Positions 7,091-50,564 of a stretch of DNA of 64,000 nucleotides are shown one piece after another (position 1 is the stretch's first letter; the number at the start of each line of letters is the position of its first letter). The DNA is taken from assembly GCF_014137975.1 (NCBI RefSeq), contig NZ_JACGWZ010000001.1, positions 744,001 through 808,000 on the forward strand, read 5' to 3'. The notes beneath the pieces are model-generated. The model searched no databases. It saw only the letters and a list, made by a program, of their open reading frames with translations, and was not told the origin of the DNA. A program made the translations under genes and the position numbers. Source of the DNA: Halosaccharopolyspora lacisalsi (GTDB lineage: Bacteria; Actinomycetota; Actinomycetes; Mycobacteriales; Pseudonocardiaceae).

Positions 7091-8064
7091 CGGCGCCAGC
7101 ACGCGGTAACAAGCCCGCGGCACGCAAGACCGGCCGGGGGAAGCCCACCGAGAACACACGCGCTCGCTCACGTGGCCGGACACGCTCTTCGGCGGTCGAG
7201 CGCGCCTATGCCCGCAGGCAGGGGCGCACCGAACGCGCCGGGGACGAACGCCGGGCTCGGCAGCCACAGCGTCCCAACGCTCGCGGCTCCCAATCGCCGC
7301 GGCAGCAGGGATCGAAGAAGGGGACCCCTCCGAAGGGGGCCGCTTCGAAGGGAACGTCCGCGAAGCGGGGGGAGTCCTCGAAGGGAACGTCCGCGAAGCG
7401 GGGGGAGCCCTCGAAGGAGAGTGCTGCGCAGCAGCCCTCGGCGAAGGAGGACTCCGCGCAGCGGCGAAGCTCGGCGATGCACAAGGCGCGCCAGCTTCCG
7501 AAGAAGGTCACGCAGTCGAACGTGCCGTTCGTGGTGACGGTGATGGCGGTGCTCACGATCGGGATCGCCGGAACCCTGTGGCTGTCCAGCGCCGCGGTCA
7601 GCAACACCTACCAGCTACGGCAGGCCCAGACCAGGGTCAACGTGCTCAGTGAGCGCAAGGAGGACCTGCTGCGTCAGGTCAGCGTCATGAACTCGGCCCC
7701 GGCGCTGCGGAAGCGAGCCGAGGAGCTGGGCCTGGTGATGCCGGGGGAGGCCGCACACGTGGTGATGCACCCCGACGGCTCGGTCTCGATGGTCGGCGAT
7801 CCCGAACCCGCGAAGGCACCTCCGGCTCCGCCACCGCAGCGGCCACCGGCTCCCGACGCCGGACCCCCCACTGCTCCGGCGCCGCCACCGCAGCGGCCAC
7901 CGGCTCCCGACGCCGGACCCCCCACTGCTCCGGCGCCGCCACCGCAGCGGCCACCGGCTCCCGACGCCGGACCCCCCACTGCTCCGGCGCCGCCACCGCA
8001 GCGGCCACCGGCTCCCGACGCCGGACCCCCCACCGCTCCGACTCCGCCACCGCAGGAGCGCTGA
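7087..8064 (+). CDS. ftsL: FtsL-like septum protein with repeat tail
   Basis: The 325-residue protein sits in the ftsL position between rsmH and ftsI. It has a very basic cytoplasmic region (about 1-145), one transmembrane helix (about 148-170), a short coiled coil (about 173-215) and a Pro/Ala-rich tail. FtsL links the FtsQ complex to FtsW/FtsI at the septum. The protein is long for the family because of a KGTSAKRGE repeat in the N-terminal region and four 18-residue repeats at the C-terminus. The TTG start overlaps the rsmH stop (TTGA) and has GGAGGGGG upstream. Identity rests on position and topology, since FtsL sequences diverge strongly. Confidence 0.88.
7345..7410 (+). repeat. 33-bp tandem repeat in ftsL N-terminal region
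   Basis: Two head-to-tail 33-bp copies encode [11 protein letters not shown] and [11 protein letters not shown] in the basic cytoplasmic part of FtsL. Confidence 0.85.
7831..8046 (+). repeat. four 54-bp tandem repeats in ftsL tail
   Basis: Four near-identical 54-bp units begin at 7831, 7885, 7939 and 7993, with a partial fifth at 8047. Each encodes an 18-residue unit around [17 protein letters not shown]. The last copy has several silent or near-silent differences. Near identity at the DNA level points to recent expansion. Confidence 0.95.
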
Positions 8065-37828: not shown

Positions 37829-38500
37829 GTGATCCGGGTACTGCTGGCCGACGACGAGCCCCTGATCCGGGCCGGGGTGAACGGCATCCTCGCCGCCGAC
37901 TCCGGGATCGAGGTGGTCGCCGAGGCCGGGGACGGACGCGAGGCCGTCGAGCTGAGCCGCCACCACCGCCCGGACGTGGCGTTGCTGGACATCCGGATGC
38001 CGGTGTTGGACGGGCTCGCCGCGATCCCCGAGATCCGCCACGCCGTCTCCGGCACGGCCGTGGTCATCCTGACCACCTTCGGGGAGGACGAGTACATCGC
38101 GCGGGCGCTCGGGGAGGGAGTCGGGGGTTTCCTGCTCAAGACGGGGGACCCGCGTGAGCTCATCACCGGAGTGCACGCCGTGGCCGAGGGTGCGGCGTTC
38201 CTGTCGCCCCGGGTGGCCCAACGGGTGATCGCCCGGTTCGGCGACGGCCGCGCGTCCCGGAAGGCCGCGGCCGGGGAGCGGGTCACGACCCTGACCGACC
38301 GCGAGCGGGAGGTGCTGACCCTGGTCGGTTCCGGACTGTCCAACGCGGAGATCGCGGCCCGGCTGCACCTCGTCGAGGGCACGGTCAAGGCGTACGTCAG
38401 CACGATCCTCGACCGGCTCGACGCGCGGAACCGAGTGCAGGCCGCGATCACCGCGTACGAGGCGGGGCTTGAGGAACATCCGTGTCGGATCGTGCGCTAA
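37829..38500 (+). CDS. LuxR/NarL-family response regulator, C-terminus altered by transposon
   Basis: The 223-residue protein has a receiver domain (acidic pocket LLADDE, phospho-Asp in DVALLDIRMP, Lys in FLLKTGD) and a C-terminal HTH (LTDREREVLTLVGSGLSNAEIA, GTVKAYVSTIL). The GTG start has GAGGAGTGAGG upstream. A Tn3-family transposon starts inside the gene at 38464. The original end, recoverable beyond the transposon at 50538-50564, would read AYEAGLVGSD. Now it reads AYEAGLEEHPCRIVR, with the last nine residues encoded by the transposon end. The HTH is intact, so it may still work. Confidence 0.93.
   Translation: MIRVLLADDEPLIRAGVNGILAADSGIEVVAEAGDGREAVELSRHHRPDVALLDIRMPVLDGLAAIPEIRHAVSGTAVVILTTFGEDEYIARALGEGVGGFLLKTGDPRELITGVHAVAEGAAFLSPRVAQRVIARFGDGRASRKAAAGERVTTLTDREREVLTLVGSGLSNAEIAARLHLVEGTVKAYVSTILDRLDARNRVQAAITAYEAGLEEHPCRIVR
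38459..38463 (+). repeat. target-site duplication GAGGC, left
   Basis: GAGGC directly precedes the outer transposon and is repeated at 50538-50542. A 5-bp duplication is the Tn3-family hallmark. Confidence 0.95.
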
Positions 38501-38502
38501 GC
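38464..38502 (+). repeat. outer transposon left terminal inverted repeat
   Basis: These 39 bp match the reverse complement of 50499-50537 exactly. They also supply the new 3' end of the response-regulator gene, including its TAA stop. Confidence 0.97.
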
Positions 38503-38591
38503 GTTATCCCAGTTCGTTGCCGCGTTGACCTGCGGCGAAGCGGTACTGGAACCTTCCGAGGTCGTTGTAAACGATCTTTGGAAGGGCAGTT

Positions 38592-39619
38592 GTGGCAGTC
38601 GAGTTTCTGTCGGATGAGCAGGCGGCTGAGTACGGGGCGTTTCCCGCGACGCTGTCTCGGGGCGAGCTGGAGCGGTACTTCTTCCTGGATGACGCGGATC
38701 GGGAGCTGGTGCGGGACAAGCGGCGGCCGCACAACCGGCTTGGGTTCGCGGTCCAGTTGGCCAGCGTTCGCTACCTCGGGCGGTTCATGCCGGATCCGCA
38801 GCAAGTCCCTACGGAGGTGGCCGAGTACCTGGCCGAGCAGTTGGAGATCTTCGACCCGTCGTGCCTGAAGGACTACGGCGAGCGGGACGGCACCGCGCGC
38901 ACCCACGCTGGTGAGATCCAGAAGGCCGAGGGCTGGCGGGACTTTTCCGAGGTCACCAGCGAGCTGAGTGAGTGGCTCGACGCCCGCGCCTGGACCACTG
39001 GCGACGGGCCGAAAGCACTGTTCGACGCCGCGGTGGGCTGGCTGCGCGAGCGAAAGGTGCTGCTGCCCGGGGCGACCAGGCTGGCGCGGCTGGTCGGTTC
39101 GTGCCGGGAAGCGGCGACGCAGCGGTTGTGGGAGACGCTGCACGATCTGCTCGACGATGACCAGCGCGCCGCGCTCGACGGCCTGCTGGAGGTGCCGGAA
39201 GGGCACCGGCATTCCCGGCTGGACCGGATTCGGCGCCCGCCGACGCGGGTGTCGGGCCCGGCGATGGTCGACGCGCTCCAGCGGGCCGCGGAGATCCTGG
39301 GGTTGGGGTTCGCCGAGGTCGACACCGAAGTCGTGCCACCTCGTCGGCTCGCGGAGCTGTCCCGGTACGGGGTGCAGGGCAAGGCCGCCCTGCTGCGCCG
39401 CCACGGCGACTCTCGGCGTGCGGCGACGCTGCTGGCCACGGTGGTCTACCTGCAAACGCGGGCGGTCGACGATGCCCTGGACCTGCTGGATGTGCTGATC
39501 TCGTCCAAGCTGCTGGCCCGGGCGGAGCGGGCGTCGGCTAAGGAGAAGCTGCGCACGCTGCCCCGGCTCGGTAAGGCGTCGGCGAAGCTGGCCGCCGCGT
39601 TCGGCGTGCTGCTGGAGAT
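38592..39619 (+). pseudogene. tnpA: outer transposase TnpA, 5' fragment
   Basis: Residues 1-342 of a Tn3-family transposase: an N-terminal DUF4158-type DNA-binding region (FLSDEQAAEYGAFPATLSRGE, RRPHNRLGFAVQLASVRYLG) and part of the middle region. The GTG start has GGAAGGG upstream. At 39620 the inner transposon interrupts the gene, and the frame runs 15 codons into the inner inverted repeat before a stop at 39665. Joining position 39619 to 44796 restores the frame as VLLEITGTHDDLAS. An imperfect inverted repeat (CCTTCC...GGAAGG, 38552-38585) lies in the leader. Confidence 0.93.
39615..39619 (+). repeat. target-site duplication GAGAT, left
   Basis: GAGAT directly precedes the inner transposon and is repeated at 44791-44795. 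Confidence 0.95.
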
Positions 39620-39661
39620 GGCCCAGTTCTCCCGAAGCTCCCGCGAGCCGCAAAGTAGCGG
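39620..39661 (+). repeat. inner transposon left terminal inverted repeat
   Basis: Exact reverse complement of 44749-44790. Similarity continues for a few bases after a single mismatch at 39662. Confidence 0.97.
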
Positions 39662-39716
39662 GTGATCGGTCGTGATCGCTCGATCGTGTTACTGGTGGTC
39701 GCGTTAGCGTCCGCCC

Positions 39717-42644
39717 ATGCGTCAGAACTGGACATCGGACGAGCTGGTCGATTTATGGACGCTGGTCGGTGAGGACTGGCGGTGGCTGGGAAACAAGACC
39801 GGCGTGACGCGGCTTGGGTTCGCGGTGCTATTGAAGTTCTTCGAGATTGAGGCCCGATTTCCCGCGTATCCGGAGGAAGTGCCGTCGGCAGCGGTGGACT
39901 ATGTGGCCTCGCAGGTGCGGGTGGAGGCCACCGAGTTCGCCAAGTACTCGCTATCGGGGCGCACAGCGGAGTATCACCGCAGCCAGATCCGGGAGGCGAT
40001 GGGCTTCCGCCCGGCGACCGAGGCTGATGAGCAGCGGTGGACCGGCTGGCTGGCCGAGGAGCTGGCTGGGGTGGAGCTGGATCGCCAGCGGCTGGCGGCG
40101 GCGGTGTTGACCCGGTGCCGCCAGGAGAAGGTGGAGCCACCGACGTCGGGCCGGGTGGATCGCGTTGTGGCCAGCGCGCTGCGGCAATTCGAGACCGCGT
40201 TCTGCACGCGGACGGTACAGCGGCTGGGACCTGCCGCTGATCGGCTGGAGGCCCTGGTGGCCGAGGCCGAGGGGCAGCGGGGCGGGCTGTTGGCGGAGTT
40301 GAAGGCCGATCCGGGGCAGGCCAGTCTGGACACGCTGCTGCGGGAGATCGACAAGCTCGCCGCGGTGCGGGCGCTGGGACTTCCCGCAGGATTGTTCGAG
40401 GATGCGTCCGAGAAGCTGGTGGCCGCGTGGCGGGCCAGGGCGGCGCGGTCGTGGCCGTCGGATCTGCGCGCCGCCTCGGGCGAGGTGCGGCTAACGCTGC
40501 TGGCGGCGTTGTGCTGGGTCCGGCAAACCGAGATCACCGACGCGCTGGTGGAACTGCTGATCAGCCTGGTGCACAAGGTTAACGCACGTGCCGAGCGGCG
40601 GGTAGAACGCGAACTGACCGAGGATCTGCGGCGCGTGCGGGGCAAGGAAGGCATTCTGTTCCGGCTGGCCGAGGCCGCCGTGGAGCACCCGGATGAGCTG
40701 GTGCGGTCGGCGGTGTATCCCGTGGTCGGCGAGAAAACGCTGCGGGAGCTGGTCAAAGAAGCCAAAGCCAACGAACGCGCCTTCCAAGCCAGGGTGCGCA
40801 CCGTGCTGCGCAGCTCGTATTCGAACCACTACCGGCGGATGCTGCCGGCACTGCTGGCCGCACTGGAGTTCCGCTGCAACAACACCGCCTACCGGCCGAT
40901 CATGCAGGCCCTGGACCTGCTCGGACGCTACGCCGAGGTCGACGGCAAGACCCGCTTCTACGACGCGGGCGCGACGGTGCCCTTCGACGGGGTGGTGCCG
41001 AAAGCCTGGCGGGAGGCGGTCGTCGACGAGAAGGGCCGCGTCGAGCGCATCCCGTATGAGCTGTGCGTGCTGGTGTCCCTGCGCGATGCGTTGCGCCGCC
41101 GCGAGGTGTATGTGGCCGGGGCCAGCAAGTGGCGCAATCCCGAGGACGACCTGCCCGCGGATTTCGAGTCCAGCCGGGACGTGCACTACGCCGAGCTGTG
41201 CCAGCCGCTGGATCCCAGCGAGTTCATCACGGACCTGCGCAGCCGCATGAGCGCGGCCTTGGAACGGTGCGATGCCGCCCTGGCCGACGGCACCGCGGGC
41301 GGGGTACGGGTCGGCCAGCGCCGGGGCGAGCCGTGGATCACCGTGCCCAAAGCGGATCCGCTGCCCGAATCGCAGGCCCTCGGCGCACTCAAGGACGAGG
41401 TCATCCGCCGCTGGGGCACGCTAGATCTGCTCGACGTGCTCAAGGACGCCGACTTCCTCACCGAGTTCACCGCCGAGTTCTCCTCGGTGGCCTCCCGCGA
41501 GGCGCTGGACCGGCCGACGCTGCGCCGGCGGATGCTGCTGTGCCTGTTCGCGTTGGGCACCAACATCGGGATCCGCCAGCTTGTCGACACCGGCGAGCAC
41601 GGGGAAACCGAGGCCGCGCTACGGCACGTGCGCCGGCACTTCATCACCCGCGACAACCTGCGGGCCGCGATCGGAAAGCTGGCCAACGCGACCTTCGACG
41701 TGCGCGATCCGCAGTGGTGGGGCCAGGGCACGGCGTGCGCGTCGGACTCGAAGAAGTTCGGCTCGTGGGAGTCGAACCTGATGACCGAGTTCCACCAGCG
41801 CTACGGCGGACCCGGTGTGATGATCTACTGGCACGTCGAGCGCAAGAGCACCTGCATCTATTCCCAGCTCAAGTCCTGTTCGTCGTCCGAGGTCGCGGCG
41901 ATGATCGAGGGGCTGCTGCGGCACTGCACCGACGCCGAGATCGAGGCCAACTACGTCGACACGCACGGCGCGAGCGTGGTCGGGTTCGCCTTCACCGAAC
42001 TGCTCGGGTTCCGGCTGCTGCCGAGGTTGAAGAACATCGGCTCGATCCGCCTGTACCGGTCGGACGACGAGGCCGCCTACGCGCATCTCGGACCCGTGTG
42101 CACCCGGCCGATCAAGTGGGATCTCATCGCCCAGCAGTACGACCAAATGGTCAAATACGCCACCGCGCTCCGACTCGGGACGGCCGAGTCGGAGTCGATC
42201 CTGCGCCGGTTCACCCGCGGCGGCCCGAAACACCCCACCTACCAAGCCCTGGAGGAACTCGGCCGGGCGGTGCGCACGATCTTTGCCTGCGACTACCTCG
42301 CCTCCCCCGAGCTGCGCCGCGAGATTCACGGTGGCTTGCAGGTAGTGGAGCAGTGGAACTCCGGCAACACCGTGCTGTTCTACGGCAAAGACGGCGATCT
42401 GACCGGCCCCGACCGCGAGCACAGCGAGGTGTCCATGCTCGCGCTGCACCTGCTTCAGTCGGCGCTGGTGCACGTCAACACCCTGCTGCTGCAGCAGGTC
42501 CTGGACGAACCGGCGTGGGCAGGCACCCTGGGCGATGCCGACCGGCGTGGCCTGACGCCGCTGTTCTGGTCCAACATCAACCCTTACGGGCGCTTCCGCC
42601 TGGACATGAGCAAGCGCCTCGACCTACCGACCCCGTCTCGTTGA
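39717..42644 (+). CDS. tnpA: Tn3-family transposase TnpA (inner element)
   Basis: The 975-residue protein is full length for the family. The RNase-H-like core has the first Asp in [13 protein letters not shown], the second in [14 protein letters not shown] and the Glu in [18 protein letters not shown]; the C-terminus is [16 protein letters not shown]. It cuts and joins the element ends in replicative transposition. The start ATG has no ribosome site but a TTAGCGT box lies 7 bases upstream, so a leaderless transcript is possible. No stop, frameshift or missing motif is visible, so the enzyme looks active. Confidence 0.95.
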
Positions 42645-42651
42645 CGGATCC

Positions 42652-43479
42652 TCATAGGAAGTCGAGGATCTCACTGCGGACGCGTGCTGGTTGGTCTTCC
42701 ATGAGGAAGTGGCCGCCGTTGTCGATCACGGCCAGCTCCGAGCCCGGGATGTCTGCGGCGAGTCGTTTGGCGTAGGTGAGTGGTTGCCAGGCGTCTTGGG
42801 CTCCCCACAGCAGACGCACCGGCATGGTCAATTGCGCCAGCGCGGGCACGACCTGCTGTGTGGGGCTGGAGTCGTATTTCCGGACTTGGTGCTCGAAGAA
42901 CGAGGCCCGGCCCAGAGCGGACCGGTGCGGAGCGAGGTAGGCATCCAGCACCGCGCCACTCATGCGATCCGGGTTCGCCACGGTCATCTGCAGTTGCCTG
43001 GTCAGCATCGCTTCGAAGTCACTCGCCGGCATGGCGGCGTAGTCCTGGAGGTGATCGCGGATGATCGCCTGCCAGGTCTCCGAGGGCCAGGAGTCGTAGC
43101 TGACTGTGTCGATCAGCATCAGCCGGCGCACGCGCCGGGGTTGAGCCGTGGCCAGCAGCTGCGCGATGGCACCGCCGATGTCGTGGGCGACCAGGCAGAA
43201 CTGGTCGATGCCCAGGTGCTGCAGGAGCGCCTGAAGAACTTCGACTTGCCCGCGCACCGAGGTGTCATGGGTCAGTGGCCGTTCCGATCGGCCGTATCCC
43301 AGCAGGTCGAACAGCACGACTCGATAGCCGGCTCGCTCGACCTCGGGAACAACGTCACGCCAGATGAACGAGTGCGACGGGGTGCCGTGCAGGAACACCA
43401 CCGGCTCACCGCTGCCTCGATCGCGGTAGGCCAGACGTACGCCATTGACGATGACCTCACTGTCCAAGAGCTCGGGCAC
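42652..43479 (-). CDS. alpha/beta hydrolase (haloalkane dehalogenase-like)
   Basis: The 275-residue protein has the oxyanion region VVFLHGTPSHSFIWRDV, an Asp nucleophile in LVAHDIGGAIAQ and the catalytic His in DNGGHFLMED. An Asp rather than Ser nucleophile places it near dehalogenases and epoxide hydrolases. The GTG at 43479 is chosen because GAGAGGAG lies 5 bases upstream; a TTG at 43494 would overlap that site. It is divergent from tetR across a shared operator and lies 8 bp from the transposase stop, so it is cargo of the inner transposon. The substrate is unknown. Confidence 0.85.
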   Translation of the reverse strand: MPELLDSEVIVNGVRLAYRDRGSGEPVVFLHGTPSHSFIWRDVVPEVERAGYRVVLFDLLGYGRSERPLTHDTSVRGQVEVLQALLQHLGIDQFCLVAHDIGGAIAQLLATAQPRRVRRLMLIDTVSYDSWPSETWQAIIRDHLQDYAAMPASDFEAMLTRQLQMTVANPDRMSGAVLDAYLAPHRSALGRASFFEHQVRKYDSSPTQQVVPALAQLTMPVRLLWGAQDAWQPLTYAKRLAADIPGSELAVIDNGGHFLMEDQPARVRSEILDFL

Positions 43480-43495
43480 AGCTACTCCTCTCAAA

Positions 43496-43532
43496 GGTAT
43501 AACGGTCGTTCTACTAGAACGGTCGTTATACT
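43496..43532. promoter_or_regulatory. TetR operator and divergent promoters
   Basis: Two copies of the near-palindromic decamer AACGGTCGTT (43501-43510 and 43518-43527), centres 17 bp apart, lie inside a larger imperfect inverted repeat running from 43498 to 43530. A -10 box for tetR (TATACT, 43527-43532) and one for the hydrolase (TATACC on the minus strand, 43501-43496) sit at the two edges. Binding should repress both genes. Confidence 0.8.
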
Positions 43533-43538
43533 ACGGAG

Positions 43539-44123
43539 ATGACGCTCGACCAGCAACCTTTGCCATCGGCCCGTGACCGCCTGCTCACCGCCGCCGGCGA
43601 GCTCTTCTACGTCCGCGGCATCAATGCCACCGGCATCGACGCGGTCGTGGAACGAGCCGGTGTAGCCCTAGCCACGCTCTATAAGCAGTTCGGCGGCAAA
43701 GACCGGCTCGTGGCCGCCTACCTCGAAGAGCGGGACCATCGCTGGCGAGCGGACTGGGAGGCCGCCATCGCCACCACCACCGACCCGCGGCAGCGGGTTG
43801 TGGCGATCTTTGATGCCCTGGAGCGATGGTGGGGCACTGAGGGCTGCTACCGCGGCTGCGCGCAGGTCGACGCTGCTGTCGAGATCACTGACGCCGAACA
43901 CCCCGCGATTGCCGCGATCACCCGACACAAGACACACCTGCGCCAACGCCTGACCGAACTCACCCGCGAGGCCGGCGCAGCCGAGCCCGAACAGACCGCG
44001 GCGGACATCGTGGTGATCTACGAGGGCACGATCACAGCATTGCTGCTCCAGCTCGTGCCCGAGCCCCTGCAGCGAGCACGTCGCCTGACCACCGAACTGC
44101 TCCCGACCGACAACAGAAGATGA
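43539..44123 (+). CDS. TetR family transcriptional regulator
   Basis: The 194-residue protein has a TetR-type N-terminal HTH ([43 protein letters not shown]) and a helical ligand-binding domain containing [14 protein letters not shown]. The ATG lies 7 bases after the TATACT box, so the message is probably leaderless. It faces the hydrolase gene across a typical TetR operator, and is expected to repress both itself and the hydrolase until a ligand binds. The ligand is unknown. Confidence 0.92.
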
Positions 44124-44722
44124 ACCGGCCGTCGATCGGCCGTCTCGTACCTGATGGAAACCTGCAGTACGTACGGAAACGAAGGTTCGCGAGACACCGC
44201 GAACCCGGCAGCGTTTCCGCAGGTCGGCTCTGTCACGCAACCCGTGTCCGCGCCACCGTCACGCTGGCCCGACGGCCCGAGCTGGACAAGGCGCTGCTGG
44301 CAGCCAACCGGGCCGGGGACCAGCTCGTCGTGACCAAGCTCGACCGGCTCGGCCGCTCCTTGGAACACCTCATCGAACTGTCCAAGCAGCTTCAGACCAA
44401 GCAGGTCGACCTCGTGGTGCTGGACCAGGGCATCGACACGTCCACCGCTGTCGGCCGCATGTTCTTCCAAATCATCGGCGCCATCGCCGAGTTCGAACAC
44501 GCCCTGATGTCCGAACGCACCATCGACGGACTCGCAGCCGCACGTGCCCGCGGACGGACCGGAGGGCAGAAACCCAAACTCGGGCCACGCCAAGTGAAAT
44601 TGGCCCGCGAGATGTACGACGAAACCGGTGACGACGGCAAACGCCGCTACACCGTCGCTCAAATCGCCGCCGAGTTCGGCGTCACCCGCCCCACCATCTA
44701 CCGCCACCTCAGCGCTGGCTGA
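44120..44722 (+). pseudogene. tnpR: serine resolvase TnpR lacking catalytic N-terminus
   Basis: From about 44270 the frame matches serine resolvases: [45 protein letters not shown] and a C-terminal HTH ([21 protein letters not shown]). The first 45-50 residues, including the nucleophilic Ser of the YARVS motif, are absent. About 50 unrelated residues join the fragment to the tetR stop. The junction suggests that the hydrolase/tetR cargo arrived by a rearrangement that removed the gene's 5' end. The product cannot be a working resolvase. Confidence 0.85.
44174..44219 (+). terminator. two-part hairpin after tetR
   Basis: An inner perfect stem (GGTTCGCG / CGCGAACC, 44184-44205) is enclosed by CGGAAAC / GTTTCCG (44174-44180 and 44213-44219). 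It probably ends the tetR transcript, and it lies in the non-homologous part of the tnpR relic. Confidence 0.5.
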
Positions 44723-44748
44723 CAGCCCATCAGCACATCAGCGATCAT

Positions 44749-44790
44749 CCGCTACTTTGCGGCTCGCGGGAGCTTCGGGAGAACTGGGCC
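44749..44790 (-). repeat. inner transposon right terminal inverted repeat
   Basis: Exact reverse complement of 39620-39661, followed directly by the GAGAT duplication. Confidence 0.97.
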
Positions 44791-44795
44791 GAGAT
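44791..44795 (+). repeat. target-site duplication GAGAT, right
   Basis: Second copy of the 5-bp duplication made by the inner transposon. Confidence 0.95.
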
Positions 44796-46329
44796 CACCG
44801 GCACCCATGACGACCTCGCCTCCCAGGCCGCCGAGGACGGCGATCGAGTCGAGCCGGTGAGCCTGGGGCAGGTGTGGGCCGAGATCGAGGCCGTGGTGCC
44901 CCGATCGGAGCTGGCCGAGGCGCTGACCGCGGTGGTCGAGCTGGCCGGCCCGCCGGATTCCGACGCTGACGAGGCGTGGCGGGCGGAACTGGTCAAGCGG
45001 TTCGCCACGGTGCGGCCGTTCCTGCCGTTGTTGTGCGAGGTGATCCGCTTCGACGCCGCACCCGACGGGCAGCGGGTGCTGGCTGCGTTGCGGGATCTGC
45101 CGAGGTTGTGGGGCGGCGGCCGCAACAAGGTCGCCCGCTCGGAGATCGACGAGCAGTTGCTCATCGGCTCCTGGCGGCACCTGGTGCTGCACGCCCCGGA
45201 GCTGGAGCCCGGCACAGTGGACTGGCGGGCCTACACCTTCTGCGTGCTGGAGCAGTTCCACCGGTGCCTGCGTCGTCGGGACATCTTCGCGGTCAACTCC
45301 AGCAAGTGGGGTGACCCGCGCGCGAAGCTGCTGGCCGGCAGCGCGTGGATCACGGCCAAGCCGGTGGTGTTGTCCAGCCTCGGCCTGCCACCCGACCCTG
45401 CCCAGCACCTCGATGAGCGCGCCGAGGCGCTGGATGCGACCTTCCGCGAGGTCACTGCCGGGCTGCCGGACAACACGGCGGTCCGCTTCGACGAGCAGGG
45501 GCGCCTGCACCTGGCGGCGCTCCCGGCGGAGGCGGAGCCGCCGAGCCTGGAGAACCTGCGGGTGCTGACCAGCCGGATGCTGCCCCGCGTTGATCTGCCC
45601 GAGGTGCTGCTGGAGGTGTTCTCCTGGACCGGCGCCGCGGAGGCGTTCACCTCGATCACCGGCGGCGAAGCCCGCCTGGCGGACCTGCCGGATCAGAAGC
45701 TTTGGCGCGTCGACACCAAGGCGGACTACGGCCCGTTCAGCACAGCGGCCCGCGGCCGGATTGACCTGGACCGGGTGCGGCGGCACTGGGAGGACATCCT
45801 GCGCGTGGTCGCTTCCATCCACACTGGTGCGGTCCGGGCACACGATGTGATCCGGATGCTTTCCCGCGATGGGCACCCCACCCCGCTCGGCGAGGCCATC
45901 GCGCACTACGGGCGGATCGAGAAGACCCTGCATGTGCAGCGGATGGTCGACGACACCGGCTACCGCCGCGACATCAAGGCCCAGGCCAACCTGCAGGAAG
46001 GCCGCCACGCGCTGGCGCGGCGGATCTTCCACGGCCAGCGCGGCGAACTGCGGCAGCGCTACTACGAAGGCATGGAAGACCAACTCGGCGCCCTGGGCCT
46101 GGTGCTCAACGCGATCGTGCTGTTCAACACCCGCTACCGCGATGCCGCGATCGCCGAACTGCGAGCCGGGGGCTACGAGGTGCGTGACGAAGACGCGGCA
46201 CGGCTCTCGCCCTTCGTGCGCGGCCACATCAACATGCTCGGCCGCTATTCCTTCCTGGCCCCGGACCTGGCCGGCGCGCTGCACCCGCTGCGCGACCCAT
46301 CCGAACCCGACGAGGAAGAGATCAACTGA
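44796..46329 (+). pseudogene. tnpA: outer transposase TnpA, 3' fragment with core deletion
   Basis: This is the rest of the split outer transposase (about 511 residues); an internal ATG at 44857 could start a 490-residue product. It contains the middle domain and the C-terminal part with HTGAVRAHDVIRML, MEDQLGALGLVLNAIVLFNTRY (with the catalytic Glu) and HINMLGRYSF. Near residue 265 of the 490-residue product, FSWTGAAEAFTSI runs straight into LADLPDQKLWRVD. Relatives have about 130 residues between these, including both catalytic Asp motifs. The deletion is in frame, and the rebuilt protein would be 853 residues instead of about 985. Confidence 0.9.
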
Positions 46330-46332
46330 TCA

Positions 46333-46373
46333 CGGGCGGGCGCCCTCGACGATTTCCAGGAGGCGCCCGCCCG
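46333..46373. terminator. bidirectional terminator between tnpA and cargo
   Basis: A perfect 12-bp stem (CGGGCGGGCGCC / GGCGCCCGCCCG) with a 17-base loop lies 4 bp past the tnpA stop. It faces the end of the convergent cargo operon. Confidence 0.7.
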
Positions 46374-46445
46374 GTTGGGCCTTTCGGTCGCTGGTCCTGC
46401 GGGACTGCCGGTGGAAGGTCAATTCCAGCGTCTTCGCGGGGCTGG

Positions 46446-47336
46446 TCAGGAGGCGTTGAGTGCGGGCACGAATTCGGTCTTGATGAATGTCTCCAGCGAT
46501 GTCGGGGTGGTTGTTTCCGGGGTTCGTGGCTGGGCCATGCGCAGGTGACCGGTATTCACGGCGTGCGGGACTTCCGTCATCATCGCGGCGACGTTGTCCG
46601 ACACACCGGCTTCGCGCAGCTGCTCGTGGAAAGCCTCCACGGTGCAGCGTTCGTAGGCCACGGGTGCGTCGATTGCTGTTGCGATCGCCTGTGTGACCTC
46701 GTTCATGGTCACGTCTCTTTCGCCTTGCAGTTCCCGGATTAGTGTCCCGGTCTGCGGCCGTGTCAGTTCCTCGGCCGCGGCGGTGCCGACGTCGGTCGTG
46801 GTGATCAGCGGTAGTGGCACGTCGGGGTCGAACGGCGCGATGATCCGACGGTGGGTGCGCACGGAGTCGAGGTGGTCGAGGAGGTTTTCCATGTAGTAGC
46901 CCGCGCGCAGCCACGTGATGTCCGTTCCGGGAACGGTCGAGAGACGGTTCTCGAAGCGGTGCAGGCCTGCAACGGGGCCGGTACCGCTGGCGTGTTGCGC
47001 TCCCCAGCTGCTCAGCGCTACGACACGGGGCACCCCGGATTGGGTGACAGCGTCGGTGAGCGCGGCTGCCGCCTGGTCTTGGAAGGCGGCGAAGTCGGGG
47101 TGATCGGGGATGTAGTTGGGTTGGATGACCAGGTAGGCGGCATCCGCTCCGCGGAGAGCGGTGGTCATCGTGGTGGGGTCGGATTGGTCGGCCTGATGGA
47201 TCTGGGCTCCGTGGTCGGCGAGGTGCGCGAGGTTGCGCGGGTCGCGGCCGACTGCTCGCACGTGGTGGCCGTGTTCCAGCAGGTGCGATGCCACGGCGCG
47301 GCCGGTGCGGCCGCTGGCTCCGGTGATGACGTACAT
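46446..47336 (-). CDS. NmrA-like NAD(P)-binding protein
   Basis: The 296-residue atypical short-chain dehydrogenase starts MYVITGASGRTGRAVASHLL, the GxxGxxG Rossmann motif. LVIQPNYIPDHPDF and WLRAGYYMENLLDHL follow, typical of NmrA/azoreductase-like proteins that bind NAD(P) and sense redox state or reduce quinones. The catalytic Tyr-Lys pair of classical dehydrogenases is not evident. The ATG has AGGAAGA upstream. Last gene of a three-gene operon with the reductase and the MmyB regulator. Confidence 0.88.
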   Translation of the reverse strand: MYVITGASGRTGRAVASHLLEHGHHVRAVGRDPRNLAHLADHGAQIHQADQSDPTTMTTALRGADAAYLVIQPNYIPDHPDFAAFQDQAAAALTDAVTQSGVPRVVALSSWGAQHASGTGPVAGLHRFENRLSTVPGTDITWLRAGYYMENLLDHLDSVRTHRRIIAPFDPDVPLPLITTTDVGTAAAEELTRPQTGTLIRELQGERDVTMNEVTQAIATAIDAPVAYERCTVEAFHEQLREAGVSDNVAAMMTEVPHAVNTGHLRMAQPRTPETTTPTSLETFIKTEFVPALNAS

Positions 47337-47349
47337 GCTTCTTCCTGTG

Positions 47350-48321
47350 TCAGTAGCGGTTTCCGGCTACGGGTGCGGCGATTGCAGAGATCTCGGCGAG
47401 ATCGTCCGGGGAGAGACTGATTCCGGTGGCTGCGAGGTTGTCTTCCAGGTAGGTACGCCGTTTGGTTCCGGGTAGAGCGACGACGTCATCGCCCTGGTGG
47501 GCAATCCAGGCGAGTGCAAGCTGCGCAGGACTTGCCCCGTGACGTGCGGCAAGCTCGGTGAGTTGCTGCACGATCCGTTGGTTGTGCGCGAAGTTCTGCT
47601 CGGAGAAGCGGGCGAAGCCGCGGCGCAGATCCTGTGGTGGTAACGAGTCCTGCGAGTTGATCGTGCCGGTCAGAAGGCTGCGGCCGAGTGGTGCGTAGGC
47701 GACGACGCCGATGCCGAGTCGGCGGCACGTCGGCACGACCTCGTCCTCGATGTCCCGAGACCACAGCGACCATTCGGTCTGCACCGCCGCGATGGGGTGT
47801 ACTCGGTAGGCTCGCGTGATTTCCTCGGCGCTGGCTTCCGACAGTCCGAGGTGACGGACCTTTCCCGCCGCCACGAGCTCGGCCATCGCACCGACGGTCT
47901 CCTCGATCGGCACGTGCGGGTCCACGCGGTGCAGGTAGTACAGGTCCACATACTCGACGTTGAGTCGTTGCAGCGAGCGGTCGATGGCCTGGTGCACGTA
48001 GGCCGGATCGGCTCGGACGGTGGCGTCGGTGTAGTCGGCGTCGCGCACGATGCCGAACTTGGTGGCCAGAACCGCTCGGTCCCGGCGATCGGCAAGTGCT
48101 CGCCCGACCAGGCCTTCGTTGGCCCCGCCGCGCCCGTACATGTCCGAGGTGTCGAAGAGCGTCACGCCCTCATCCAGAGCGCGGTGGATCGTCGCGATCG
48201 ACTCCACCTCGTTGTCGGCCGTGCCGTAGAAATCGCTCATCCCCATACAGCCCAGGCCCTGTTCCGATACCTCCAGCGACCCCAGGTGCCGTGTTCCCAG
48301 GGCGGTTCGGGGAGGCGTCAT
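47350..48321 (-). CDS. aldo-keto reductase
   Basis: The 323-residue protein has the aldo-keto reductase tetrad: Asp and Tyr in LFDTSDMYGRGG, Lys in AVLATKFGIV and His in LYYLHRVDPH. The C-terminal cofactor segment is VALPGTKRRTYLEDNLAA. It is an NADPH-dependent reductase of carbonyl compounds; the substrate is unknown. The ATG overlaps the stop of the MmyB-type gene, and the NmrA gene starts 13 bp after its end. Confidence 0.92.
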   Translation of the reverse strand: MTPPRTALGTRHLGSLEVSEQGLGCMGMSDFYGTADNEVESIATIHRALDEGVTLFDTSDMYGRGGANEGLVGRALADRRDRAVLATKFGIVRDADYTDATVRADPAYVHQAIDRSLQRLNVEYVDLYYLHRVDPHVPIEETVGAMAELVAAGKVRHLGLSEASAEEITRAYRVHPIAAVQTEWSLWSRDIEDEVVPTCRRLGIGVVAYAPLGRSLLTGTINSQDSLPPQDLRRGFARFSEQNFAHNQRIVQQLTELAARHGASPAQLALAWIAHQGDDVVALPGTKRRTYLEDNLAATGISLSPDDLAEISAIAAPVAGNRY

Positions 48322-49190
48322 GATGTGCTCTCCTCTCGGGTGGTGAACGTGGAAGCCGACAACGTGGCAAGCGACCTGAGACGCACCAGCGCTTCTTCGG
48401 TGGCGTCGTCGGTGGGGTGGTAGGCCCAGACCTGGTGACCGTCGGTGTCGGGGAGTTCCAGCACGTGCTGGTTGAACACCAGCGCGCCAACCAGCGGGTG
48501 CTGGAACCGCTTGCGGTCGACGGCTTTCTCGTACACCTCGTGCTGCGCCCAGGCGGTGCTGAACACTTCGCTGGCCACGGCGAGCTCACCCACCAGCCGC
48601 TCCAACCGGCCCGAACCCGCCTCGGAACCGGCGCTGGCACGCAACGCCGCCACCATGCAGTGGGCCAGCTCGGACCAATCGACGAAGAACTCCTGCGCCC
48701 CCGGCGACAGAAACACCATCCGGGCGTAGTTCTCCCGATGCTCCAACCCCTCGTGAAGCATCTCGCCCAACGCATTGGCGGCCACGATGTTGAGCCAGCG
48801 GTCCACCAGGATCGCGGGGACGGTCAACGAGCCAAGCAACGGCCGGACCGCATCCAGCCGCCCGAGCGCGAGGACGCCGCCTACCTCGGCGTCGTCGTCG
48901 GCCGTGGCGAGCTCACGCAGATACCGCAACGAGGCACGGTCCAGCAGCAAAGCCGCCGACAGCCCGTCGGTCACCATGCGTGAAGGATGCCGCTCCCGGC
49001 CCTGCTCCAGCCGCACGTAGTAGTCCGTGCTGATCCCCGCCAGCATCGCGACCTCATCGCGCCGCAGCCCCGCCACCTGCCGAGACCCGCCCGGCACGAG
49101 GCCCTGCTGCTCCGGGCGCACCTGCTGACGCCGCGCCCGCAGAAACGCGCCCAGCGGGCTGTCCAGCGCCTTCGCCTCCCATGAGTCCAT
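48318..49190 (-). CDS. MmyB-type XRE transcriptional regulator
   Basis: The 290-residue protein has an N-terminal HTH (LRRDEVAMLAGISTDYYVRLEQGRE) and a C-terminal ligand-binding domain of the MmyB type with PAILVDRWLNIVAANALGEML. Such regulators usually control an adjacent oxidoreductase and bind a fatty-acid-like or other hydrophobic ligand. It is the first gene of the operon with the reductase and NmrA genes, overlapping the former by 4 bp. The likely promoter lies in 49191-49354. Confidence 0.92.
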   Translation of the reverse strand: MDSWEAKALDSPLGAFLRARRQQVRPEQQGLVPGGSRQVAGLRRDEVAMLAGISTDYYVRLEQGRERHPSRMVTDGLSAALLLDRASLRYLRELATADDDAEVGGVLALGRLDAVRPLLGSLTVPAILVDRWLNIVAANALGEMLHEGLEHRENYARMVFLSPGAQEFFVDWSELAHCMVAALRASAGSEAGSGRLERLVGELAVASEVFSTAWAQHEVYEKAVDRKRFQHPLVGALVFNQHVLELPDTDGHQVWAYHPTDDATEEALVRLRSLATLSASTFTTREESTS

Positions 49191-49354
49191 AAACCCACCG
49201 TAGAGAGCTCACCCGGATCCCGGGGTAGGAGCACAACACCCACCCCATCAACCCCGACAACCAGACAGATCGTCCACTCGGCCAGGTCCGGAGCGAATAC
49301 TCGGGGTGAAGAACAGGTGGGCCGAAGTGAACGCCACTGCAGCTCATCGATGCG

Positions 49355-50329
49355 TCAACGGCGGCTGTCGCCCGGGGCCAGCAGGCTGGTGACCTCCGCC
49401 AGGGCCTGGTCGGAGGGTTTGAAGTAGCGGCGGACGTTCTCCGGCTTCTTGTGCCGGGACTTCGCCATCAACAGCAGCAAGGACGCGCCAGCCTCGCCGA
49501 GGTGGGTCAGCGCTGAGTGGCGGAACTCGTGTGGATCCCACCCGGTGCCCGAGCCTCGGAGCGCGGTATGGGCGTCGAGCAGGCCACGAGCTTGGCCGTA
49601 GGACAACCGGGCCAGCCCGGTGTCCGGGCACACGTCACGGGCCCCGAGAACCTTGCCGGGACCGGCGCGGCGGTGGGTGAGGAACACCGGGCCGCGGGTG
49701 CGGCCCTTGAGCAGCCGGGGCAGCAGGCGGGCGGTGCCGGCGTCCCAGTAGACGGTCTCCAGCACGACGTCCTCGCGCGTCTGGCCGCGGCGGCGGATCT
49801 TCGCCCGCGCTCCCTTGGCCTTCACCGGGGCGCGGCGCCCGGCGAGGTCCAGGTCCTCGATGTTGAGGCCGAGGACCTCGTCGGCGCGGGCGGCGGTTTC
49901 GTAGAGCATCCGGTAAAGCGTCTTCTCCCGGATCGCGACCTCGCGGCGCGCCACCAGTCGGTCGATCGCCAGCCGGGAGCGCACCCGGGTCTCCGAGTCC
50001 GGGGTCGCCAGGCGCTTGGCCCACCCCGGCACTGCCGGGGCCTGGCCGCGTTCCCGGCACCACGACAGCCACGACCCCACGGCGGCCCGGCGGGCGTTCC
50101 AGGTGCCCACCGCCGCCCGGCCCCACAGCGCCTCCAGGGTCTCGCCGACCTCGTCGTCGGCCACGGACGCCAGCGGCCGCCGATCGCCGAGCTGGTCGGC
50201 GGTCTTGCCCACCGCGGTGCTGTAGCCGCGGATCGTGTTCGGGTTGCCCAGCGAGTCGAGGAACAGCTCGGCCGACCGGCCGACGGTCAGCGTCGTGGTG
50301 TCGGTCGGCAGCGCGACGACGGTGGGCAC
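49355..50329 (-). CDS. tyrosine recombinase (TnpI-like)
   Basis: The protein has an N-terminal SAM-like domain and a catalytic domain with Arg in [13 protein letters not shown], the HxxR box in [13 protein letters not shown], His in [12 protein letters not shown] and the nucleophile Tyr in RRYFKPS. I chose the GTG at 50329 (324 residues), which has AGGGAGA 6 bases upstream; a GTG at 50368 would run over a repeat of the candidate recombination site. It lies just inside the right end of the outer transposon, where TnpI-type recombinases that resolve cointegrates are often found. Confidence 0.88.
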
Positions 50330-50345
50330 CCGCGTTCTCCCTTGC

Positions 50346-50437
50346 CGCAGATAACAGGGCCGCTTCACGCGCCGCCGCGGGGACGTTCCCGCAGGACGTG
50401 ATCAGCGATGGCACGGATAATAGAGCGTTATCTGTGG
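50346..50437. promoter_or_regulatory. candidate recombination (resolution) site of outer transposon
   Basis: An inverted repeat CACGGATAA (50412-50420) / TTATCTGTG (50428-50436) around a 7-bp spacer TAGAGCG resembles a tyrosine-recombinase core site. A third similar arm, CGCAGATAA, lies at 50346-50354. The site lies between the recombinase gene and the right inverted repeat. The repeats are seen; the role is inferred. Confidence 0.55.
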
Positions 50438-50498
50438 CAAGACTTCAGACGCCACCGCGGCCTGAAGCCCCGTCAGCCGCCTACCAGGACCGACGAGG

Positions 50499-50537
50499 GC
50501 TTAGCGCACGATCCGACACGGATGTTCCTCAAGCCCC
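50499..50537 (-). repeat. outer transposon right terminal inverted repeat
   Basis: Exact 39-bp inverted copy of 38464-38502. Confidence 0.97.
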
Positions 50538-50564
50538 GAGGCGGGCCTGGTGGGTTCCGACTAG
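50538..50564 (+). pseudogene. displaced 3' end of response-regulator gene
   Basis: The GAGGC duplication at 50538-50542 and the next 22 bases encode EAGLVGSD and a TAG stop. This is the original last part of the response regulator now ending at 38500. Rejoined, the gene would encode 218 residues. Confidence 0.9.

Follow-up and report, generated by a model that had tools for sequence, protein, structure and literature searches.

A Tn4430-like transposon of Halosaccharopolyspora lacisalsi whose transposase has lost two catalytic aspartates through an in-frame, probably repeat-mediated deletion

The window analyzed here, a 64,000-nucleotide stretch of Halosaccharopolyspora lacisalsi DNA, comes from a 5.37-Mb genome that is 97% complete in 16 contigs. 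As can be seen in Table 1, one transposon lies inside another. The outer element (38464-50537; 12,074 bp) is a Tn3-family, Tn4430-like transposon, in which tnpA, cargo genes, and a tyrosine recombinase follow one another between the ends. Transposons of the Tn3 family have long terminal inverted repeats of ~38-40 bp, starting GGGG, and a 5-bp target-site duplication is typical of them. In the outer element, the two 39-bp ends are mutually identical, and the same 5 bp flank it on both sides. Its insertion site lies close to the 3' end of a gene for a response regulator; when the element and one GAGGC are removed in silico, the C terminus AYEAGLVGSD is restored, which resembles the AYEAGLV or AHEAGLV of homologues (frame recovered at three of five loci). 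The recombinase is a TnpI-type protein of 337 aa with a Phage_integrase domain, which is 80% identical to its counterpart in intact Thermocrispum elements and matches XerD weakly, with the Arg and His-x-x-Arg residues aligned.

Table 1. Coordinates of features at the locus, in window positions
Feature	Position	Strand
Left target-site duplication of outer element (GAGGC, 5 bp)	38459-38463	
Left 39-bp terminal inverted repeat of outer element	38464-38502	+
Outer tnpA, 5' part (reference residues ~1-342; includes left duplication of nested element)	38592-39619	+
Left target-site duplication of nested element (GAGAT)	39615-39619	
Nested Tn3-family element	39620-44790	+
Nested tnpA, full DDE domain match (Pfam)	39717-42644	
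Nested alpha/beta hydrolase	42652-43494	-
Nested TetR	43539-44123	
Nested resolvase, 5'-truncated	44120-44722	
Right target-site duplication of nested element (GAGAT)	44791-44795	
Outer tnpA, 3' part (contains deletion junction)	44791-46329	+
Deletion junction, one remaining copy of 13-bp repeat CTGGC(C/G)GACCTGC	45676-45688	+
Outer cargo, overall	46446-49190	-
NmrA-like oxidoreductase, outer cargo	46446-47336	-
Aldo/keto reductase, outer cargo	47350-48321	-
XRE/MLTR-type regulator, outer cargo	48318-49190	-
Tyrosine recombinase (TnpI-like) of outer element, full length	49355-50368	-
Right 39-bp terminal inverted repeat of outer element	50499-50537	-
Right target-site duplication of outer element (GAGGC, 5 bp)	50538-50542	

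The nested element, also of the Tn3 family, has inverted repeats of 49 nt (98%) and splits the outer tnpA in two. In its resolvase, the Pfam domain is matched only over positions 47-144 of 145, so that ~46 residues are missing from the start, where the catalytic serine lies; no YxRVS-like motif was found in the three frames checked just upstream. It may be that the nested element cannot resolve cointegrates on its own.

Once its two parts are rejoined, the outer tnpA has 851 codons and no internal stop, and its product is homologous to the ~1000-residue Tn4430-type transposases, minus 174 residues. The segments EVFSWTGAAEAFTSITGGEA and RLADLPDQKLWRVD are joined directly in a single open frame (45613-45714), whereas 522 extra bp separate them in Saccharopolyspora sp. 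HNM0983, Thermocrispum agreste, and T. municipale, the three best relatives, whose identities over the left part are 92%, 91%, and 91%. Matches to these relatives fall into two pieces that part at query residues 273-277, and the pieces lie 522 bp further apart in the relatives. Moreover, DNA alignments break at the junction in eight loci (L014, L015, L078, L079, L080, L081, L084, and L085), the left piece ending at 45688 and the right piece starting at 45671, 45676, or 45677.

Numbered on the intact copy in genome G330, which served as reference, the missing segment corresponds to residues ~640-813, that is, 174 codons. In this reference, the motif SVDG starts at residue 712, TDTASYSD at 786, and QEGRHALAR at 916, and the lost segment holds the first two, with Asp714 and Asp787. 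These residues align to Asp679 and Asp751 of Tn4430 TnpA, which PMC9579193 names, with Glu881, as the catalytic triad. The outer TnpA has therefore lost both catalytic aspartates and kept only the glutamate of the triad, in QEGRHALAR; consistently, the Pfam DDE_Tnp_Tn3 match in the right half of the gene covers only profile positions 197-389 of 389. Because both aspartates are gone, the outer element is a defective derivative and not an autonomous member of its family. The earlier note had described a direct joining of the two segments that removes both aspartates in frame, separately from the nested insertion, and had suggested an alignment to Tn4430 TnpA; its description agrees with what we see. 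Its estimate of about 130 missing residues was too low, although it correctly placed the VDG-type and TDTASYSD-type motifs within the loss.

How the segment was lost is suggested by the relatives. In the window, the junction consists of a single copy of CTGGCGGACCTGC, whereas the G330 gene has CTGGCCGACCTGC and CTGGCGGACCTGC spaced 522 bp apart, encoding LADL at both positions of the normal protein. A pair of 13-bp repeats at this spacing, matching at 12 or 13 positions, was found in four of the five intact genes checked: the two copies are identical in G142 and G084, they match at 12 of 13 positions in L014, and the pair in L085 falls below the 12/13 threshold. We then compared all 13-mers lying 100-1500 bp apart in each of the five genes and found that pairs matching at 12 or more positions make up only ~1e-5 of all position pairs, yet the deletion falls exactly on such a pair in four genes, which led us to reject a chance placement of the junction. 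Since the relatives carry this rare pair 522 bp apart, deletion between short direct repeats offers the best account of the mechanism, the repeat being reconstructed from the relatives and not from the ancestor of the window copy. Direct repeats are also where mis-joins can occur, and the junction could in principle be an assembly or sequencing artefact. We consider this highly improbable, since usual reads are much longer than a 13-bp repeat and the contig around the site measures 1.6 Mb, in a genome as complete as this one.

The short form is common to none of the relatives examined, in a comparison set with one genome of the window's own genus. While 36 of the 390 genomes of the family match the outer tnpA at E 1e-40, only the window's own match runs in one row from residue 2 to 490; a few others cross the junction point, such as 252-488 in G158, and these have a separate row for the left part and the longer spacing. 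Searched as a degenerate pattern with one mismatch allowed, the junction peptide occurs in the window's own genome and in no other of the 397 genomes of the order; among 98 loci it is found only in L001 and L098, both again the window's own. An exact search of viral contigs returned no junction peptide, and phage records gave no match. Plasmid records among the matches listed (25 of 75) carry the long form, all aligning in two pieces that span 740-765 bp for 225 query bases. A short form conserved among the relatives was therefore rejected. According to the earlier note, its reading would have been refuted by close relatives that share the short form and still transpose.

Among the 12 distinct full-length copies that remain when the window's is set aside (at least 1000 reference residues and at least 68% identity, rows below 68% being dropped), the first aspartate is present in all, the second in 11 (Asp787 is aligned to Glu in L095), and the glutamate in 11 (Glu917 is aligned to Thr in L049, a frame-broken copy). 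The first aspartate has also gone in three further relatives, through other, independent deletions: ~79 codons in L083 (genome G358), residues 302-763 in L023 (G339), where the repeat is imperfect, and ~347-802 in L036 (Saccharopolyspora soli), with little or no repeat. Decaying copies thus lose this region repeatedly, and not always via repeats. The loss seen in the window is real, recurrent in kind, and unique in detail. The left breakpoints of the L083 deletion (7286-7327) and that of the window fall at nearly the same codon (RLADLH/RLADPH), hinting at a weak hot spot; no terminal repeats were found near this copy with up to 11 mismatches.

As for the age of the deletion, the retained parts of the outer tnpA show dN/dS values of 0.09-0.18 against L078 and L079, close to the 0.10-0.15 measured between these two intact copies (L084, L094, and L048, from which no CDS was recovered, stand outside the comparison). 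We infer from this proximity that constraint on the gene lasted until recently and that the deletion is itself recent. The low dN/dS and the open frame could also be read as signs that the short protein has a function and was kept for it, for example, as a binding-only regulator or an inhibitor of transposition; its N-terminal part corresponds to the TnpA DNA-binding region (domain names from PMC9579193). However, no examined relative has the short protein, low dN/dS is what the period preceding the deletion would leave, and the nested element also cuts the gene, so that no complete short protein is made; a kept function is therefore very unlikely. The N-terminal DNA-binding part of TnpA varies with the end type. 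Against L078, whose ends differ from those of the window at 0-1 of 39 positions, dN is 0.054 over residues 3-340 and 0.048 over residues 345-634; against L080, whose ends differ at 9-10 of 39, the corresponding values are 0.158 and 0.048. Since N-terminal divergence tracks the end type in these two copies, the comparison suggests that the N-terminal DNA-binding module of TnpA is exchanged together with the element ends.

The intact sisters with the same ends that the earlier note had proposed to look for do exist. In G330, which belongs to another genus of the same family, an element (L078 2026-13699) shares the layout of tnpA, cargo, and tnpI with the outer element, its ends being identical to those of the window at 38/39 and 39/39 positions and its tnpA reaching ~91% identity over the 5' part and 92% over the middle. 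It is flanked by a 5-bp duplication of its own (GGATG). It differs in that its tnpA is intact and in its cargo, which consists of a copper-type heavy-metal ATPase, a CueR-like regulator, and the mercury resistance proteins MerA and MerB (L078 5327-11613). The 1046-aa TnpA of this sister aligns almost end to end with that of Tn4430 (structures 7qd4 and 7qd8), over residues 28-1015 (E 5e-108) and with the same DDE triad, of which the window copy lacks the segment bearing Asp679 and Asp751. Tn4430 encodes TnpI. Like Tn4430, the outer element has a tyrosine recombinase; unlike it, it carries cargo between tnpA and the recombinase gene and resides in an actinobacterial host. A literature search combining Tn3, tnpI, actinobacteria, and tnpA returned nothing.

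Because a sister with near-identical ends exists in another genus, rescue in trans would be possible in principle, and trans mobilization of Tn3-family ends is documented in PMC13367494 and PMC4133298. A search of the window's genome for a close intact transposase found none: the best candidate shows 44-57% identity and has ends identical at 27/39 positions. It was rejected as a rescuer, as was the transposase of the nested element, the ends of which match at 9/39. The earlier description of the outer element as dead unless a related transposase acts on its ends is therefore fair. Elsewhere, L089, L090, L091, and L092 contain single ends with 2-3 mismatches from the 39-bp end; no partner was found for them within 18-19 kb with up to 11 mismatches, and they are probably remnants.

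It can be asked whether the deletion arose elsewhere, the already defective element being brought to this site in trans by a related transposase, which would make it a mobile non-autonomous derivative and not a fossil. The perfect 39-bp ends and 5-bp duplication would fit such an arrival, as would the existence of the intact sister and the mobilization documented for other Tn3-family ends. However, the junction has turned up at a single site, the genome contains only one pair of these 39-bp ends, and its nearest transposase is as distant as described, so that we regard this origin as unlikely. Less likely still is that the element, its own transposase no longer able to cut, travels as a non-autonomous derivative whose perfect ends let incoming sister transposases move the oxidoreductase cargo, with a surviving N-terminal fragment that may bind the ends and damp transposition. 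The outer element also resembles TIMEs and MITE-like Tn3 derivatives, in that the ends are kept, an active transposase is absent, and movement could occur only in trans. It is nonetheless no TIME, that is, a short element without tnpA, since it spans 12 kb and keeps most of tnpA, the cargo, and the recombinase gene.

We conclude that the outer element is very probably a once-functional Tn4430-type transposon that suffered a repeat-mediated loss of 522 bp in tnpA and is now a non-autonomous passenger. It would have started as a functional Tn3-family transposon with 39-bp ends and variable cargo between tnpA and tnpI. Recombination or replication slippage between the two 13-bp direct repeats would then have taken out, in frame, the stretch of the RNase H-like domain bearing the first two catalytic aspartates, so that no active site would be expected to form. 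The same tnpA was also hit by a second Tn3-family element. Since perfect ends, duplications, and the recombinase remain, the product of these events would be a passenger, which could move only if the transposase of a close relative acted on the outer ends.

The outer element thus represents ordinary decay: it is a defective member of a transposon family already known and leaves general knowledge of transposons unchanged. This decay is unusually clear, since there is an intact sister elsewhere whose ends match. The case illustrates cleanly how an element of the Tn3 family loses autonomy via a single, probably repeat-mediated, in-frame deletion, which removed two of three catalytic residues while ends, duplications, and recombinase remain perfect. 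Together with its intact sister, whose ends nearly match, it forms a natural pair for testing trans mobilization.
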